Part shown: piece after piece, positions 9,873 through 62,268 of the stretch
Layout of the letters: the number at the start of each line of letters is the position of its first letter
Position numbering within the stretch: position 1 is the stretch's first letter
NCBI GenBank assembly: GCA_019638115.1
Contig: JAHBUK010000003.1
Location: forward strand, 62,001 to 126,000
DNA length: 64,000 bases
Source: Flavobacteriales bacterium
GTDB lineage: Bacteria > Bacteroidota > Bacteroidia > Flavobacteriales_F > PHOS-HE28
Direction: 5' to 3'
Translations under genes and position numbers: made by a program
Notes under the pieces: generated by a model
Databases searched by the model: none
What the model was told of the DNA's origin: nothing
What the model saw: the letters and a program-made list of their open reading frames with translations, nothing else

Positions 9873-11624
9873 ATGTGCGCCCAACAACGCCCCCGTAAAC
9901 GCCGTACCTGGCTGCGCATTCTGCTGGTGGTGACCGTGGTGTTGCTGCTGGGCGCTGCTGGTGTGGCCTACTGGGCCTGGAAGTACGGAGAGGACTGGCT
10001 GGAGCGCACCGCGCGCGAACGGATCGCAGAGGCCATCGACAAGGCCAGCGTGAACGGCTACCACTTCACCATGCAAGGGCTGGAGACCAATGCCCGCACG
10101 GGCCGCATGTCCCTTACCGGCGTGGACCTCGACTTCGCCCCCGAGCTGTTGGACAGCTTGCGCAGTGGTGCTTTCCGATACCTCTTCGCCGCCAAGGCAC
10201 GGCACATCGAACTGCGTGGCCTATCCTATTGGCGCCTCTTGTGGAAAGGGGAGTTCCGCGTGGATGCCCTGGAGTTGATGGAGCCTTCTTTAAGCTACTT
10301 GTTGGGTGGGCAGCGTGTCGGCCTGGCGGACCCCTTCACACGGTTCGAGGGCAACGCCGGGGCGCTTTCACTGCTTTTTGCGGATACCGTGGTGCTGCGC
10401 GGCGGTGTGGCCACGGTAGAGGATCTTGGTGAACGACTGCCTCGCCTGGAGATGAACGGACTTGATCTGGAAGGGCGTTCCGTGCGCATCACCATGGGCC
10501 AATTGCGCGGTGGCGTACGCCTGGTGCTGGATGGGGCCGAACTGCAACTGGACAGCCTTAGCACACAGCTGCCCGATGGTGATCGGTTCAGCATCGGCGA
10601 AGTGCGGATATCACGCAGTGCGCGGTCCGGAACAGTCCGCAACATCCAACTGCAAGCCCGAGCGGTGGATACACTGGCTGCGGACCTCGAACGCAAAGCG
10701 CTGGTGAACGTGCAGGTGGATAGCATGCTGCTCAGTGGCCTGGACCTCGATGGATTGATAACGGAGCAGGCCTTGCGCATAGAGCACATGACCCTGCATG
10801 GGGCCCAGGTGCAAGTGGAACTCGACAAGACCTGGCCCATGGGCGAGGAGCACGCGCAACCCTTGCCTCCGGCCGCATTGCTGGCGCTGCCCTTCGCGGT
10901 AAGGGTGGATACGCTTTCCGTGGTGGATGGTGGAACCCTTTACCGGGAGCGCGATGGCTCCACCAAGCGATGGGGGACCGTGCCGCTCCAAGGTGTGCAG
11001 GCGCGCTTCTTGAACGTGGCCAACGAGCACGACAAACGGTCCGTGCGCGCACCGTTGACCGCGCACTTCAGCGCAACGCTTTTCCATGATGCGGCACTGG
11101 ATGGCACATACAGCGCAGCCCTTGATGGAAGCGACCATTTCGAACTGAATGCCACGGTGACGGACCTGCCCATGCGCAACTTGAACAACACCACGCGGCC
11201 CTTGCTTCGGGTTCAAGTGCAGGGAGGTATGCTGCACGGTCTGCACTTGCGCATGGAAGGCAACGCGCGGCGCGCCAAGGGCAACATGGCGGTACACTAC
11301 AGCGATCTACGTTTTCGTGTGGAGCCCGGTACCCCGCGCGAATTGCGGCACAGCATGTTCGGCTCGGTGCTGGAGACCATGCTTACGGAAGCCTATGGCG
11401 GTGGGCTCACGGCCGACCGTGAACGCAGCTATTCCGTTGAACACGTGCCGAGTGCTTCGCTGATCACATACATCTGGCATGCGACCCGCGAAGGGCTTGC
11501 GCGCAACCTGGCCCCCGAAGCTTGGGAAAGGATGCGCGGCATGCTCCGTACCGATGGCGAACAACGACGCGAACAGCGCGAGATGCGCAGGCAGCGCAGG
11601 CAGGAGCGGCAGGAGCGGCGGTAA
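9873..11624 (+). CDS. AsmA/DUF748-like membrane-anchored protein
   Basis: This 583-residue protein has an N-terminal basic segment and one transmembrane helix (ILLVVTVVLLLGAAGVAYW). Long amphipathic beta-strand-rich stretches follow, with the AsmA-like opening VNGYHFTMQGLETNARTGRM. It ends in a very basic tail (REQREMRRQRRQERQERR). AsmA-type proteins bridge the periplasm and are linked to outer-membrane lipid homeostasis; that role is assumed from architecture only. The gene is divergent from rpoN with a 99-bp gap, and a shared promoter region is likely. Confidence 0.7.
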   Translation: MCAQQRPRKRRTWLRILLVVTVVLLLGAAGVAYWAWKYGEDWLERTARERIAEAIDKASVNGYHFTMQGLETNARTGRMSLTGVDLDFAPELLDSLRSGAFRYLFAAKARHIELRGLSYWRLLWKGEFRVDALELMEPSLSYLLGGQRVGLADPFTRFEGNAGALSLLFADTVVLRGGVATVEDLGERLPRLEMNGLDLEGRSVRITMGQLRGGVRLVLDGAELQLDSLSTQLPDGDRFSIGEVRISRSARSGTVRNIQLQARAVDTLAADLERKALVNVQVDSMLLSGLDLDGLITEQALRIEHMTLHGAQVQVELDKTWPMGEEHAQPLPPAALLALPFAVRVDTLSVVDGGTLYRERDGSTKRWGTVPLQGVQARFLNVANEHDKRSVRAPLTAHFSATLFHDAALDGTYSAALDGSDHFELNATVTDLPMRNLNNTTRPLLRVQVQGGMLHGLHLRMEGNARRAKGNMAVHYSDLRFRVEPGTPRELRHSMFGSVLETMLTEAYGGGLTADRERSYSVEHVPSASLITYIWHATREGLARNLAPEAWERMRGMLRTDGEQRREQREMRRQRRQERQERR

Positions 11625-11866
11625 GGTTCGGTGCCCTGGCCGCAAGCCGGGATCGGATGGCGCCTTGTAAAGCACAGCACGTGCTGCCGCAGACTGGTTC
11701 TCCGATCGAACGAGAAGGCCCACTGGATCGACAGGACCGAACGGCGGCTCGATCGTAGGGTCGTGTTGGAGAAGAGTGCGCATACTTGTCTTGCCGCTGC
11801 TTCATTCATGGATGCACTCGCATTTCTGATGAAGGCCAGCGTAACGCATCGAGCACCATTCGCAGT

Positions 11867-12109
11867 TGCAGCAACTCGTTCAACACCCTGCGCCTGTATC
11901 CCTATCCCGCCTCGGATCGGGTAACGCTCGCTGGCGACCGCCCGCTGGGTGCGATCACCGTGTTCGACATGAACGGCCGCATGGTGAAGCAGCTGCGCTC
12001 CAACCTGGAAAGCGTGCCACTGCCACTGGATGGGCTGGATGCCGGCGCGTACTTCGTGCGGGTGGAGCATGCGGAAAGCACGGCCACGCTGAAGTTGGTG
12101 GTACAGTGA
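11867..12109 (+). pseudogene. Orphan T9SS type A sorting domain (remnant of a secreted protein gene)
   Basis: About 80 codons read NTLRLYPYPASDRVTLAG, ITVFDMNGRMVKQL, then LDAGAYFVRVEHAESTATLKLVVQ and a TGA. This is a complete T9SS C-terminal sorting domain (YPxP motif, F/LDMNGR turn, GxYFVRV strand, final basic/hydrophobic tail) without any signal peptide or passenger. The upstream 11625-11866 has no matching open frame. A deleted or recombined secreted protein gene is the simplest reading. Confidence 0.65.
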
Positions 12110-12232
12110 GGCGCCTTCACGACCGTCCCGTTCATTTGCCCATTGCCATGCCCATGCTGAACGGATCGCACCGGACTCCGCTCCGGACATCGGACCCCGT
12201 CAATGCTTGAACCACGAACGCCTGTTCCTCAC

Positions 12233-14407
12233 ATGAAGCGCATCATCCCAATACTCTTCGCCTGCATGGCCATCAACGGCCTGTTCGCTCAAGGCCCCTC
12301 CTTCATTACCGCTTGGCAACCGGCCGGACAGCCGCCATTGAGCGAGACCGCTGCTGTCACCACCGATGCAGCGGGCAACATTTACACCGTGGGCCATTTC
12401 GTCGGCACCGGCGATTTCGACCCGGGCCCCGGCGAGGTGCTGCTCACCAGCAACTCCGCGCTCTTCAACGATGTGTTCGTGACCAAGATGGACCCCCAGG
12501 GCAACCTCCTCTGGGCGCGTCGCTTCGGAGGTTCGGGCCACGAGTTCGCCAGCGGTGTGGTGGTGGACAGCGATGGCAAGGTGATCATCTGTGGCCACTA
12601 CACGGGCATTGCCAACATGAACCCCGGTCCGGGCAACTTCAACCTCACCTTCGGCGGCAACACGGACATCTTCATCAACATCCTCGATGCCGATGGCAAC
12701 TTCGTGTTCGCGCGTGGCATCGGCGGCAACAACTTCGATGAGCCCTATTCCATGGTGATCGATGCCGACGACATGATCACCATTGGCGGCCGTTTCGGTG
12801 GCACCGTGAATTTCGGCCCCAATACCCTCACCGCCCCGGGCGCGCAGGAACTTTCGGACGGCTTCATCCTCCGCATGGACAACAGCGGCACTGTGCAATG
12901 GGCCAAACGGATCGGCAATACCGGGGACGACCATGTGGCCGACCTGACGCTGGACCCGGACGGCAACATCATTTTCACGGGCACGTTCGTGAGCTACCAG
13001 GCGGACTTCGACCCCAGCACCCAGTGGGCCACGCTTACGCCGGTGGGGCTGCGCGACGCCTTCGTGTGCAAGTGGACCAACAGCGGAGCGTTCCTGTGGG
13101 TGATCCAGATCGGCGGCCCCGAGAACGACTTCGGCCGGAGCGTGACCACCGATGCGGATGGCAACATCTACACCGGCGGCTCCTTCCGCAGCACCAGCGA
13201 CTTCAACATGGCCGGCATGGGCTACGCGCTCACTTCCGCCGGTGGCGACGATGCCTACATGGCCCGCTACGGCCCGGACGGCACCTTCCATTGGGCACGA
13301 CGGATAGGCGGCACAGGCAACGATGAAGCCCGCAGGATGGAACGATCGGCGGCAGGGCATTTGGTGACGCTCGGCAGTTTCTTCGGCGAGGTGGATATGG
13401 ATCCCGGACCGGGCACACAGCTTCGCAACGCAGGGGCCGGGGTGGGCATGTTCATGGTGGGCCTGAACAACAGCGGCAACTATGTATGGGACTACACCGT
13501 GAACGCGAGCATCGGCAACGGACTGCACAGCGCGGACAATGGAGACCTCTTCGCCGGAGGCAGGCACTCTGGTACCGTTGATTTCGATCCCGGACCGGAT
13601 GAGCTGTTGCTGTCCGCCGGCAATGGCCACCGTGCATGGGCACTGCGCATGGGGGTATGCACGCCGGTGGAAGGCCCCACCACCGAGGCCAGCGCCTGCG
13701 ACAGCTATGCGTGGCAGGGCAACAACTACACGTCAAGCGGCAGCTACCAGGTGGTGTATCCGAGCGTGAGCGGTTGCGACAGCACCCTTACGTTGCAGCT
13801 CACCATTTCACAGTCCAACGCCAGCACCACCAATACCAGTGCCTGCGACAGCTACACGTGGAACGGGAACACCTACACGGCGAGCGGAAGCTATCAAGTG
13901 GTGCTCACCAATGCCGTGGGCTGCGACAGTACGGCCACCCTGCAGCTGAACATCTCCACAGTGAATACAGCGCTTCAACAAACGGGCGCCACCCTCACCG
14001 CCGCACAGAACAACGCGGCATACCAGTGGGTGGATTGCAACAATGGTTTCGCGCCATTCTTCGGGCAGACCGGGCAGAGCTTCACGCCCGCGCAGAACGG
14101 CAACTACGCGGTGGAGATCACCTTCGGCATTTGCACGGTGATGAGTGATTGCGTTGAAGTGCTTACTACAGGGATCGGCGAATCAGAGCAGGCCGCATTC
14201 CGCGTGTACCCCAACCCAGCCGTGCACCAACTCACGCTTGAAGGCGCAGGCCCCTTGGGCGAAGTGTTCGTGTTGGACATGCAGGGACGCTTGGTACACA
14301 GCGAACGCACGGCACAGGAGCGCATCATCGTGGACGTGGCGGCGTGGGCACCCGGTGCGTATGTGCTGCGTGTGGGAAGTGTGGCGTTGCGGGTGGTGAA
14401 GGAGTGA
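12233..14407 (+). CDS. Secreted beta-propeller (SBBP/DPGPG) repeat protein with T9SS sorting domain
   Basis: The protein has 724 residues from the ATG at 12233 (MKRIIPILFACMAINGLFAQ, signal peptide). About seven repeats of roughly 50-60 residues follow the pattern 'D..GN.Y..G.F.GT.DFDPGPG...LTS.G..D.F..K.D..G..LWA..IGG', as in Bacteroidota SBBP-type beta-propellers. Two 'CDSYTWNGNTYTSSGSYQVV' type modules (about 490-590) follow, then a T9SS type A domain with FRVYPNPAVHQLTL and ends ALRVVKE. It is predicted to be an exported surface or secreted protein with unknown ligand. The adjacent gene at 14531 is a paralogue. Confidence 0.88.
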   Translation: MKRIIPILFACMAINGLFAQGPSFITAWQPAGQPPLSETAAVTTDAAGNIYTVGHFVGTGDFDPGPGEVLLTSNSALFNDVFVTKMDPQGNLLWARRFGGSGHEFASGVVVDSDGKVIICGHYTGIANMNPGPGNFNLTFGGNTDIFINILDADGNFVFARGIGGNNFDEPYSMVIDADDMITIGGRFGGTVNFGPNTLTAPGAQELSDGFILRMDNSGTVQWAKRIGNTGDDHVADLTLDPDGNIIFTGTFVSYQADFDPSTQWATLTPVGLRDAFVCKWTNSGAFLWVIQIGGPENDFGRSVTTDADGNIYTGGSFRSTSDFNMAGMGYALTSAGGDDAYMARYGPDGTFHWARRIGGTGNDEARRMERSAAGHLVTLGSFFGEVDMDPGPGTQLRNAGAGVGMFMVGLNNSGNYVWDYTVNASIGNGLHSADNGDLFAGGRHSGTVDFDPGPDELLLSAGNGHRAWALRMGVCTPVEGPTTEASACDSYAWQGNNYTSSGSYQVVYPSVSGCDSTLTLQLTISQSNASTTNTSACDSYTWNGNTYTASGSYQVVLTNAVGCDSTATLQLNISTVNTALQQTGATLTAAQNNAAYQWVDCNNGFAPFFGQTGQSFTPAQNGNYAVEITFGICTVMSDCVEVLTTGIGESEQAAFRVYPNPAVHQLTLEGAGPLGEVFVLDMQGRLVHSERTAQERIIVDVAAWAPGAYVLRVGSVALRVVKE

Positions 14408-55492: not shown

Positions 55493-58237
55493 ATGAAAGA
55501 GTTCAGTTTAGGAAAAAAGGCATCGCTTGTTGTCCGCAACAAGGCCAATGACCTCGATCCACGGCTTTATCGCCGGATCACCTTGTCGCGTAATCAAGTG
55601 GTTACTGGCAATAAGGTGAACACGAACAAGTGGTTCTCCAACGAGGCATACCGGGAGAAGGGCAAGAGCGAGATAGCCGACTTCTATGAAAAGATCAGTG
55701 GAGAGAGCGACTTGGTGCCGGTCGAGTTCCTCTACAAAGGGAGCGAACGTGCCGCTGCGGTCTGCCGCATCGTTGTTGTTGGCCCAAGGGGTGGTGGCTA
55801 TGGGTCGGGCTTCTTGGTCAGTGGGGGGTATATCATGACCAACAACCATGTGCTCCAATCCCCTGAACTGGCGGCCTCCAGTTATGCGGAGTTCCATTTC
55901 GAAGCCAAGCGCGATGCGGTGAAGGTGAGTTTCCGACCGGAAAAACTGTTCATCACGGATGCCGAGCTCGATTTCACCATTGTGGCTTGTGATCTTGATG
56001 AGCTGAGCGACATCACCCCCATTCCCCTTAGCGAAGAGCCTGCTGTGGTTGCGCAGAAGGAACGGGTCAGCATCATTCAACATCCCCGTGGACGGCATAA
56101 GGAGGTGGCGTTGCAGGAGAACCGGGTGAAACACGTGTACGATACGGTCGTATGGTACAACACCGACACGGAGCCAGGCTCTTCGGGTTCGCCCACCTTC
56201 AATCAACAATGGGACCTCGTTGCCCTGCACCATGCGGGGTGGTACGAAGACCAGAAGACCGGGGAGGCCACCAACGAAGGGGTCCTTATACCGGCCATCA
56301 TCCGCCGACTTAAGCAGATGGCTTTCTCATCCAGTCCGTTCCGGGTGCATGCCAAGAAGTTGCTCGGCGAAATGGAGAGCACCGGTTCGGTGCTTGGTTT
56401 CTTCGATGTGCATGGTCTTGTCCGCTATGAGGAGTCCAGCCTGGAAGTGGAGATCCCCACTTATCAGGGGGATCGTCGTTTCGCGGACATCTGCTTCTGG
56501 AACGTTGAACACTTCAACAATACGGTGACCGATGCACGGGTGGAAGCGGTTGCCCGTGTGGTGGCGGAACTGAGCATGGACGTGTTCGGTCTGGTGGAGG
56601 TGGAGCACGGTGCACTGGATCGGCTCAAGAGCGCTTTGACCCGACGTGGGCTCACCTATGACCACGTGCTCCTGGACGCGCGAGGAAGCCAGGACCTGGC
56701 CGTGCTTTTTGACGATGAGACCACGAAGGTGAAGGTGCGCGCGGATATCAACGAGCGGTATCGTGAGTTGCTTTCTCAGCGGACAGCACGGGGAAACACG
56801 GCTTTCCCCAGTGGGCGCGAGCCCTTTTTCGTGGAATGCACGGTGGATGAAGGCGACAACGCCGTCACCTTCCTTATGGTGGTGGTCCATCTGAAAGCCT
56901 TCGGCGATGTGGAAAGCCGGGCACGACGAACGCTTGCCAGCAATATCCTCGCAGCCATCATCAGCGACCTGCGGGAGCGGGAGAACATACCTATCGTGCT
57001 GGGCGGGGACCTCAACCAGACCTTGCGCGATGACAGTGTATTGAACGCTTTGTTGAACGCGCCGGACCTGTTCACCCTTACGCTTGACGATGACGCCAAT
57101 GATGCCATCAGCTATGTGGGGGCGAGGAACAAGAGCCTAATCGACCACATCATAGTCAGTAAGGATGTGCAACTCGGCGACATCAGTGGTGACGATGCGG
57201 GGATCGTGCGATTGGACCGCAGTGTGAAGGACTTCGTGTCCGATGTATCGGACCACGTCCCTCTGGTCTGCAGGCTCATCTACAAGAAGGCGGATGGGGC
57301 CAAGGTGGATGGGGCGCTGGACGACAAGCATCTCAGCGATCATGCTTCCGCTGCCCTGAACAACGACTACCAAACGGCCATGCTCACCGCCACCCTGGTG
57401 CGAACCACCGGGTTGCCTTACTACGACGAGCAAGCGGATGTGCAGGCGGTACGGGAGTACTATAGGGGGATAAGGGCGAACGAGCCAGCTAAAGCGCTCT
57501 TTTTGAAGTTGAGCGATCTGTTGGAGCGTACTCACCACACCACGCCGAATTACAACTCGGTACGCAACAGACATCTGTATCCCGTGGTCGATCTACACCC
57601 CGACGGCAAACTGCGCAGCATCTATCGAGGAGACACCTCCGTGGGATATGACCCGGAGGTTTTCATCGAACACGACTATGGCGTGGAACGCGAGATCGAG
57701 CGCAAGTTCGAGCTGTGGAGGAATTCCGAATCCTTCAGCCTGGAGAGCGAGGCCGATGTGCTGGACCGTTTGGAAGCGGCCGCACCGTACAATTGCGAGC
57801 ACGTGGTCTGCCAGAGCTGGTTCGGCAAGGTGGAGCCCATGCGCGGCGATATGCACCACCTGTTCGCCTGTGAAAGCGGGTGTAACTCGAGCCGTGGTAA
57901 CAAGCCCTACATCGATTTTGAGGACTACAACCCGGATGGGCTCGAGGCCATTCGTTTGGCTTGTGGGAAAGGGGAGGGCAACCGTTTTGAACCCGAAGCG
58001 GGGAAAGGACCCGTGGCACGCGCCACACTCTATTACCTGCTCCGCTATCCGGAGAGTATTGGGGCCTACTCCCAAGAGGACCTGAAGATGCTGCTGGACT
58101 GGCACGAGCGCTACAAGGTGGGGCTCTACGAACTGCATCGCAACCAGTGCATCCACCGCGTACAAGGCAACCGCAATCCGCTTATCGATAAACCAGAGAT
58201 CGCACGACGCATTGCTTTCGAACTCGGCTTGAGGTGA
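55493..58237 (+). CDS. Trypsin-like protease fused to EEP nuclease and endonuclease I domain
   Basis: The 914-residue protein has three catalytic parts. Residues about 85-280 form a trypsin-like protease with His119 (MTNNHVLQ), Asp160 (ELDFTIV) and Ser231 (GSSGSP). Residues about 328-595 form an endonuclease/exonuclease/phosphatase domain with Asn337 (FWNVEHF), Glu369 (LVEVEHG), His466, Asp506/Asn508 (LGGDLNQT) and Asp587/His588 (VSDHVPLV). Residues about 640-914 form an EndA/NucM-like endonuclease I with H770 (CEHVVCQSWF), DMHHLF (786-791) and QGNRNPLID (891-899). There is no signal peptide or membrane segment, so it is cytoplasmic. A protease joined to two DNA/RNA-cutting domains suggests a proteolytically activated self-targeting or anti-invader nuclease (inference). 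It stands alone with no visible partner. Confidence 0.9.
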   Translation: MKEFSLGKKASLVVRNKANDLDPRLYRRITLSRNQVVTGNKVNTNKWFSNEAYREKGKSEIADFYEKISGESDLVPVEFLYKGSERAAAVCRIVVVGPRGGGYGSGFLVSGGYIMTNNHVLQSPELAASSYAEFHFEAKRDAVKVSFRPEKLFITDAELDFTIVACDLDELSDITPIPLSEEPAVVAQKERVSIIQHPRGRHKEVALQENRVKHVYDTVVWYNTDTEPGSSGSPTFNQQWDLVALHHAGWYEDQKTGEATNEGVLIPAIIRRLKQMAFSSSPFRVHAKKLLGEMESTGSVLGFFDVHGLVRYEESSLEVEIPTYQGDRRFADICFWNVEHFNNTVTDARVEAVARVVAELSMDVFGLVEVEHGALDRLKSALTRRGLTYDHVLLDARGSQDLAVLFDDETTKVKVRADINERYRELLSQRTARGNTAFPSGREPFFVECTVDEGDNAVTFLMVVVHLKAFGDVESRARRTLASNILAAIISDLRERENIPIVLGGDLNQTLRDDSVLNALLNAPDLFTLTLDDDANDAISYVGARNKSLIDHIIVSKDVQLGDISGDDAGIVRLDRSVKDFVSDVSDHVPLVCRLIYKKADGAKVDGALDDKHLSDHASAALNNDYQTAMLTATLVRTTGLPYYDEQADVQAVREYYRGIRANEPAKALFLKLSDLLERTHHTTPNYNSVRNRHLYPVVDLHPDGKLRSIYRGDTSVGYDPEVFIEHDYGVEREIERKFELWRNSESFSLESEADVLDRLEAAAPYNCEHVVCQSWFGKVEPMRGDMHHLFACESGCNSSRGNKPYIDFEDYNPDGLEAIRLACGKGEGNRFEPEAGKGPVARATLYYLLRYPESIGAYSQEDLKMLLDWHERYKVGLYELHRNQCIHRVQGNRNPLIDKPEIARRIAFELGLR

Positions 58238-60942: not shown

Positions 60943-62268
60943 CACTGCTGTCCGGTTAAGAATCGAACAAAATCAACTGGTTCAGAGGGTTGGGGGGTGA
61001 TTCCTCCTCCACGACCTTCTGAAAGGCTTGCTGGATGGGCATTTTCTCGAAGGGCATGACCGAGCAGATCTGTAGAATGGAATGGAGCGAAGCATCCAAC
61101 TTCAGCCGCTTGCGCACGATGGCCACCAGCAGGTACACGGACACCGCGATCCAGATCTGGCACTTGACGGCGTTCTCCGAGATACCGTAGAACTTCTTGA
61201 TACGCAGATGCTGCTTGATCCACTTGAAGAACAGTTCGACCTGCCATCGGTTGCGATAGAGCTCGGCGATGGTAGTGGCGGGCAGCGCGAAGTTGTTGGT
61301 GATGAAAACCAGAAGACGCCCACTCTCCAGGTCCTTGAGCTTGATGCGCCGGAGCTTGTGGGGGTAGTCCGAAGCCGACTTAATGCCTGCGAAGACAACG
61401 GTCTGGTCGCAGATGATGCCGGTGGTACGATCGGTGGGCGCAGAGTACAGACGCCGCAGATCCGTGTTGGACTTGGCCCGAGTAATGAAGAACGCCCCGC
61501 AAACGTGCAGTGTGCAAAGGCGCTCCAGAGCCAGGTAGGCGCGGTCCATGACGTAGAAACTGCCCGCCTCCGGGATGAGCAGATCCAAGGCGTTCACGTC
61601 GTGCATCTTTCCATCGCTCACGTGGATGAAGCTGGGGGTAGAGCCACGCAGGTCCATGAGCGTATGCATCTTCACGGCCGCCTTGGTCTTGCGGAACACC
61701 GCCCAGGGGAAAGAGGACAGGCACAGGTCGATGGTGGTGGAATCCAGCGCATAAACCGTCTCCTTGAGATCCAGAACGCCGGGTTCGCTTGCATGCAGCT
61801 TGCGTGCTTGGGCGATCAATACTTGGGCAAAGTCCGAGTAGATGCGCCAGTCGCGCAGTTCGTTCGCATCGGCCAGGGTGCTGCGCTTCACCGGGCTGCT
61901 CAAGCCCATGCGATACAGCTTGCCCGGCTGCGCTCCAAGGCAGGTCTCTATGTCCCGCAGGCTCTCCCGATAGGTGAGCTGCGCGAAGGCCATTGCTCTG
62001 AAATGTTCCCGACAGGTAAGCGTTCGGACCCGATAGTCCCCGTTGTAGCGTTCCACGATGCGATCGAACGTTGTCCAGGGAAGATGCGCCATCAACTGGC
62101 CGAAGACCGTGCTGCCCACATTCATGCAGAGTTCCTTGAGTTGCCCTCAAGGAAATCCAACTCAGTGAGCGCCGCCAGTTCAAATCCGCCCCACGCATTT
62201 TCGTTCGTTATGCCGCGTCCATATTGGGCTCATCCTATGTTTGATCAAGGCTTAACCGGACACCAGTG
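60943..62268 (-). mobile_element. Intact IS4-family insertion sequence with 9-bp target duplication
   Basis: The element is 1,326 bp. Its 18-bp ends CACTGCTGTCCGGTTAAG (60943-60960) and, reversed, CACTGGTGTCCGGTTAAG (62251-62268) differ at one position. It is flanked by perfect direct repeats ATGCGCGGG at 60934-60942 and 62269-62277. One full transposase gene is inside, whose stop codon lies in the left end. All parts needed for movement are present. The insertion is in intergenic DNA upstream of the gene at 62343 and may affect that gene's promoter. Confidence 0.93.
60956..62125 (-). CDS. IS4-family transposase (DDE)
   Basis: The 389-residue protein has the N-terminal DUF4372-like domain (FGQLMAHLPWTTFDRIVERY, LTYRESLRDIETCLG). 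The DDE core has the first Asp in YALDSTTIDLCLS, the second Asp in FYVMDRAYLALERL and the Y-(2)-R-(3)-E-(6)-K signature in YRNRWQVELFFKWIK with the catalytic Glu. The length is normal and the frame is intact, so activity is plausible. It cuts and reinserts the 1.3-kb element. Confidence 0.95.
   Translation of the reverse strand: MNVGSTVFGQLMAHLPWTTFDRIVERYNGDYRVRTLTCREHFRAMAFAQLTYRESLRDIETCLGAQPGKLYRMGLSSPVKRSTLADANELRDWRIYSDFAQVLIAQARKLHASEPGVLDLKETVYALDSTTIDLCLSSFPWAVFRKTKAAVKMHTLMDLRGSTPSFIHVSDGKMHDVNALDLLIPEAGSFYVMDRAYLALERLCTLHVCGAFFITRAKSNTDLRRLYSAPTDRTTGIICDQTVVFAGIKSASDYPHKLRRIKLKDLESGRLLVFITNNFALPATTIAELYRNRWQVELFFKWIKQHLRIKKFYGISENAVKCQIWIAVSVYLLVAIVRKRLKLDASLHSILQICSVMPFEKMPIQQAFQKVVEEESPPNPLNQLILFDS

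Follow-up and report, generated by a model that had tools for sequence, protein, structure and literature searches.

A leaderless trypsin-EEP-EndA protein of a Flavobacteriales bacterium as a candidate protease-gated nuclease effector

A protease and two nuclease domains in one chain

Within the window (the whole 64,000-nucleotide stretch of DNA that was analysed), an open reading frame on the forward strand starts with ATG and encodes, without interruption, a protein of 914 amino acids composed as follows:

55493..58237, + strand: whole gene, 914 aa, trypsin-EEP-EndA (open reading frame and Pfam)
55493..55672, + strand: aa 1-60, N-terminal leaderless region without a Pfam domain, low-confidence in the structure model
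55802..56227, + strand: aa 104-245, Trypsin_2 protease with H119, D160 and S231 (Pfam, alignment, Foldseek)
56318..56494, + strand: aa 276-334, protease-EEP linker, with an LGFFD... motif common to L055, L130 and L042
56495..57256, + strand: aa 335-588, EEP (Exo_endo_phos) nuclease/phosphatase domain with N337, E369, H466, D506, N508, D587 and H588 (Pfam, alignment)
57257..57412, + strand: aa 589-640, EEP-EndA linker, variable
57413..58234, + strand: aa 641-914, EndA-clade nuclease, with a Pfam core at 761-902 (E769, H770, N798, QGNRNP at 891-896)

A preliminary description of this DNA had named the three domains in this order, and all of them exceed their Pfam cut-offs: Trypsin_2 at aa 104-245 (2.4e-23, over the curated cut-off), Exo_endo_phos (PF03372) at aa 335-588 (1.1e-9; 38.8 bits against a cut-off of 24.5) and Endonuclease_1 (PF04231) at aa 761-902 (2.4e-26; 93.4 bits against 25). 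A NucA-type identity for the C-terminal domain was rejected on the grounds that Pfam assigns it to Endonuclease_1 and not to Endonuclease_NS, and the latter is absent from both the protein and the Pfam-scanned neighbour genes. Pfam detected no EAD1 within the protein, a genome search for EAD1 gave no match but its controls stayed silent, and neither Pfam nor NCBIfam matched a reverse transcriptase domain in it. A search of solved structures relates the protease part to the staphylococcal Spl and V8 proteases and the C-terminal domain to Endonuclease I / Vvn (PDB 1oup, 2g7e, 2vnd); the EEP domain has only a weak match to a solved chain (0.0065), but its catalytic set is nonetheless complete.

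The catalytic residues named at first reading lie at the positions then given and are conserved in relatives. Alignment recovers the protease triad almost without exception (H119 in 74/75, D160 and S231 in 75/75), and D225-T226 and H246 are invariant or nearly so among the protease relatives; D225-T226 appear to be the counterparts of chymotrypsin 189-190, accompanied by the conserved His at 246. Each of the seven EEP residues is found in 7/7 relatives, and the EndA residues E769, H770 and N798 in 84/84, with N893 in 83/84. Two cysteines of the EndA clade, C768 and C797, are likewise present in 84/84, and another EndA-clade alignment has three invariant cysteines. Judged by these residues, all three domains look active. 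An AlphaFold2 model built on an alignment of 29 rows (mean pLDDT 73.5, pTM 0.42) is confident for the protease (about 80-290), much of the EEP domain and most of EndA; the linkers and the domain arrangement are unreliable in it, and therefore no claim made here rests on interdomain contacts. Foldseek with the protease placed FAM111A, an intracellular autocleaving protease, at the top, followed by Esp and V8. Helices resembling the region of aa 1-60 are visible by eye in the relatives L055, L130 and L003.

Cellular location and genomic setting

The lack of a signal peptide, also noted in the preliminary description, was confirmed by a hydrophobicity measure for the 914-aa protein and for 84 members of its EndA clade. 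Over the first 70 aa of the protein, no 17-residue stretch has a Kyte-Doolittle mean above -0.31, and a mean of at least 1.8 in the N-terminal 70 aa is reached by 0/84 clade members versus 16/28 generic EndA homologues, on a measure that is crude and misses some leaders, for example that of the second EndA of the same genome. Read by eye, this second enzyme has a signal peptide starting from an internal Met and a C-terminus like a secretion-sorting tail; with a leaderless and a signal-peptide EndA in one genome, the organism therefore has an exported EndA too. We rejected a secreted digestive enzyme as the function of the 914-aa protein because it has no leader and its chain ends in the EndA domain.

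The neighbours are two-component genes (histidine kinase and response regulator), transport genes, genes for a bestrophin and a DDE transposase, one whose product has a secretion-sorting tail, and others coding for unannotated proteins; some of these names were assigned by eye. The transposase, which carries DUF4372, lies at 60956-62125 on the reverse strand of the window, ~2.7 kb downstream of the gene. Placement in a defence island, which the preliminary description had raised, was not upheld: none of four neighbours has a PADLOC match, and two-component, transport and secreted-protein genes are nearby. No sensor, NLR/STAND or immunity gene was found among the scanned neighbours, and the surroundings of the relatives were not consistently defence-related. 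The most defence-like context seen is that of the Mesorhizobium relative (L041), which is adjoined by a UvrD-type helicase gene (10685-13378, reverse strand; GajB-like match, 1e-40) and has an AbiEii-family gene ~7 kb upstream. At 57.0%, the GC content of the gene is below the 60.6% of the window and lies inside about 1.5 SD of equal-size windows; composition is therefore no strong sign of recent transfer. Owing to the many paralogues of the adjacent kinase, flank synteny with congeners was unusable. Besides this gene, the genome has seven other Trypsin_2 matches, four of them over the cut-off.

Relatives and exchange of modules

Whole-protein scans of genome contigs and viral sequences returned no relatives, and none of 44 congeners (same genus) has a full-length homologue; two of them have protease homologues alone, which by eye are trypsin-NucA-type fusions. 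By sequence, the EndA part belongs to a distinct leaderless clade with its own ~120-residue N-terminal extension. A profile of this clade found 321 loci in 84,980 species genomes, the best 80 of which were kept, and detected nothing in viral sequences. Phage origin is unlikely, because phage records give only two weak EndA matches.

The preliminary description knew of no system with this domain order, and this stands for the literature searched, in which neither the EndA clade nor its EEP/SGNH partners nor trypsin-EEP-EndA is described, many subscription papers lying outside its reach. The order is rare but not unique, as it recurs in four other genomes among the best 80 loci and plasmids. The protein of a Mesorhizobium L-2-11 plasmid (L041) has the identical domain order over 93% of the length at 36% identity, and those of an unplaced MAG (L055), a Myxococcus (L088) and a Roseivirga MAG (L130) were recognised by domain mapping and Pfam-confirmed. 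Other plasmid relatives have the arrangements SGNH-trypsin-EEP (Pseudorhodobacter), trypsin-EEP followed by an SGNH-like region (M. onobrychidis, by eye) and trypsin-EndA (Streptomyces). The remaining kept loci are mostly trypsin-EndA, from Streptomyces, Nitrospira, cyanobacteria, Planctomycetes and Proteobacteria, or a separate EndA, chiefly in Bacillales.

A maximum-likelihood tree of the protease domain groups the 914-aa protein with L055, L130, L042 (SGNH-trypsin-EEP) and L003 (SGNH-trypsin) at a support of 100/96, and a second clade (100/97) comprises L041, L088, L044 (trypsin-EEP-SGNH-like) and three rhizobial/Paracoccus proteins. Architectures are mixed in each clade; therefore EndA and SGNH appear exchangeable around a protease-EEP core. 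Across the relatives, the swapped effector modules are SGNH, PLD, NucA and DUF1353. On a Rhizobium etli plasmid (L049, 3040-13665), genes for an SGNH-amidase-M15 protein, a trypsin with an unassigned C-terminus, a trypsin-PLD protein and a patatin form a cluster that looks like a multi-hydrolase arsenal. SGNH-trypsin is also encoded upstream of contractile-injection genes, namely gp19 tube, Phage_base_V and CIS_TMP (L003, 481-2460; L032, 2222-4201 and 5047-8232), an arrangement that may connect this family of proteases with injection systems.

In trypsin-EndA proteins that lack EEP, the linker is ~100-190 residues long and often contains the strand WTIPLxISVxLG, which occurs in 34/50 such linkers (for example in L060, L064 and L084) against 0.45 expected from shuffled linkers, and is absent from the EEP-containing proteins. 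The same strand is found at the N-terminus of the separate EndA in L096 and L105, and inspection by eye shows it in two proteins of trypsin-NucA type, L039 and L040. Five trypsin-EndA proteins carry an added C-terminal domain (L064, L066, L067, L086, L111): a confirmed DUF1353 in L064, a similar one by eye in L086, and a region with a weak M10/M12B-like metallopeptidase match in L111. In a cyanobacterial MAG (L102, 2971-4690) separate frames encode the trypsin and EndA parts, and the upstream trypsin fragment stops mid-protease.

Pairing of the EndA clade with proteases of unrelated fold

In the 76 loci with a resolved EndA gene, EndA is fused to trypsin in 47. An S8 subtilase is encoded at most four genes away from 19/29 unfused EndA genes versus 4/47 fused ones (Fisher p = 2e-7, relatedness ignored), nearly all of these cases being Bacillales. 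The S8 protein examined is an intracellular subtilisin (1e-125 to PDB 6f9m, 1e-122 to 2x8j). A gene of this type lies directly upstream of the leaderless EndA-clade gene in L057, L072, L076, L113, L114, L134 and other Bacillales, a gene pair that is apparently undescribed. Elsewhere, the gene adjoining the separate EndA encodes an M4 metallopeptidase in L058 and a trypsin in L096 and L105, and L103 has a divergent EAD1-trypsin gene; no protease gene was seen next door to the EndA of L063, L069, L073 and L083. Unrelated protease folds thus occur beside one nuclease, and therefore proteolysis is probably functionally coupled to EndA. We regard this fold-independent pairing as the strongest evidence for joint action of proteolysis and the EndA-clade nuclease, and the coupling to different folds supports a putative control of the nuclease by the protease.

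A proposed effector and its alternatives

We propose, at roughly even odds (probability about 0.5), that the 914-aa protein is a single-gene, cytoplasmic, latent and protease-gated effector of suicide or conflict, that is, of programmed death. Its intact domains and active sites, the missing leader, the coupling to varied proteases, the swapping of modules and the sporadic distribution all speak for this reading, and the scatter of relatives over many phyla suggests a self-destruct or defence enzyme that would be restrained by its protease part. The protein would be made without an export signal and kept inactive until a trigger, such as phage infection or a lysis programme, switches on the trypsin-like domain. 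The active protease would then cut the interdomain linkers, in cis or in trans, and probably cell proteins too, thereby freeing or unmasking the EEP and EndA nucleases, which would degrade the nucleic acids of the dying or infected cell. Latency, trigger, self-cleavage, the order of events and a DNA target are what we infer for this protein; the linkers vary in length and sequence and contain no recognisable autocleavage site. Vvn and other enzymes of the EndA family contain disulfides, and the nuclease might therefore be inactive in the cytoplasm.

The cytoplasmic setting is shared by an explanation that we regard as unlikely but still worth weighing, in which the protein is a cytoplasmic stock that comes into play chiefly once the cell has lysed. 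Metal ions and an oxidising environment would then activate EndA, and the enzyme would clear away proteins and DNA in the service of recycling, biofilms or gene transfer. The invariant clade cysteines would suit such an enzyme, as would the amidase, PLD and patatin genes accompanying the Rhizobium etli relatives and the amidase, M28 and M43 genes near Priestia relatives; passive release, however, would make the fusion to a protease unnecessary. A point in its favour also comes from LypC of LypABC, a CARD-NLR-like system of Caulobacter crescentus (Banks et al. 2026, PMC13236601). The peptidase activity of LypC is required for programmed lysis, which the S296A substitution blocked, while the nuclease point mutants H471A/N505A still lysed and truncated LypC without its nuclease was unstable (PMC13236601). 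The notion that a protease releases a killer nuclease may therefore be too simple, and by this warning the protease itself may be the key activity. The same experiments favour a somewhat less probable alternative, that proteolysis is the true effector activity, for which the nuclease domains mainly provide a substrate, a scaffold or a means of sensing DNA, but both nuclease active sites, unrelated to each other, are preserved in this protein and its relatives, and the EndA clade also exists without a fused protease.

It is improbable that the protein is loaded into a contractile injection system, or sent out by some other one-step exporter, to hit neighbouring cells. The SGNH-trypsin gene of L003 does precede genes for tube, spike and tape-measure proteins by ~0.85 kb, and the Streptomyces plasmid relative has, ~2.2 kb upstream, a gene for DUF4157, which we take to be eCIS-linked. 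Against this, the genome gave no match to the phage-sheath gene PF04984 (controls positive in 3), no tube, spike or tape-measure homologue was found near any other fetched relative, and the partner protease in Bacillales is an intracellular subtilisin. That same pairing, with a protease class linked to stationary phase, is what recommends a cytoplasmic housekeeping or stress-phase enzyme digesting protein and nucleic acid in starvation, but we consider this very improbable given the sporadic occurrence among congeners and the shuffled modules, which suit conflict systems better.

Returning to the gated effector, protease and nucleases stand in one chain with clear active sites, so proteolytic gating is directly testable by point mutants. 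More tentatively, and with the balance tilted against it, the leaderless EndA clade as a whole could be a widespread, undescribed class of protease-gated nucleases in conflict, in which trypsin, an intracellular subtilisin or M4 would unleash the same nuclease, and of which the 914-aa protein would be the most elaborate member, carrying out an apoptosis-like execution from a single gene that supplies two nucleases together with the protease that activates them. If this is true, a nuclease family known mainly as secreted has an intracellular, protease-paired branch in many phyla, and bacteria possess a parallel to the protease-activated DNases of animal cell death.

Relation to described protease-nuclease systems

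Trypsin-like domains were initially pointed out as modules of bacterial conflict systems, and for those coupled to nucleases this agrees with published descriptions (PMC7159879, PMC13236601). Proteolytic deployment of a nuclease has been proposed for the NucA-trypsin systems (‘System 3’ of Kaur et al. 2020, eLife, PMC7159879). Like the 914-aa protein, these systems combine a trypsin-like peptidase with a nuclease, in one chain or as proteins encoded together, and some of them also have subtilisin-type peptidases or EAD1. Their nuclease is NucA/Endonuclease_NS, whereas the 914-aa protein has EEP and EndA, no EAD1 and no multi-gene operon, and the text of that paper contains no EEP or Endonuclease I terms. 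LypC is similar in having an N-terminal trypsin-like peptidase, a flexible linker and a C-terminal endonuclease, and the LypABC operon is outside defence islands (PMC13236601), as is the present gene. However, LypC has one nuclease domain, aligned with NucA and streptococcal EndA (PMC13236601), rather than two, and neither of its partners, LypA (CARD-trypsin-ATPase) and LypB (NLR-like), was seen near this gene. Without a NucA domain, and with no NLR partner seen among the scanned neighbours, the 914-aa protein is a strict member of neither system.

Further likenesses concern single domains. The EndA of the intracellular subtilisin-EndA pairs of Bacillales is of the same clade and 46-50% identical to that of the 914-aa protein in the members aligned, but these pairs are separate genes with a subtilisin and not a trypsin fold, and without EEP. 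The secreted Endonuclease I / Vvn enzymes have a catalytic core in common with the C-terminal domain and are exported. RT-Protease_XI of PADLOC has a related protease region (3e-10, profile positions 312-502 of 506 matched) and a reverse transcriptase, which the 914-aa protein is without. Protease-nuclease conflict proteins are a known class, of which trypsin-EEP-EndA would be a branch not described in the literature searched.
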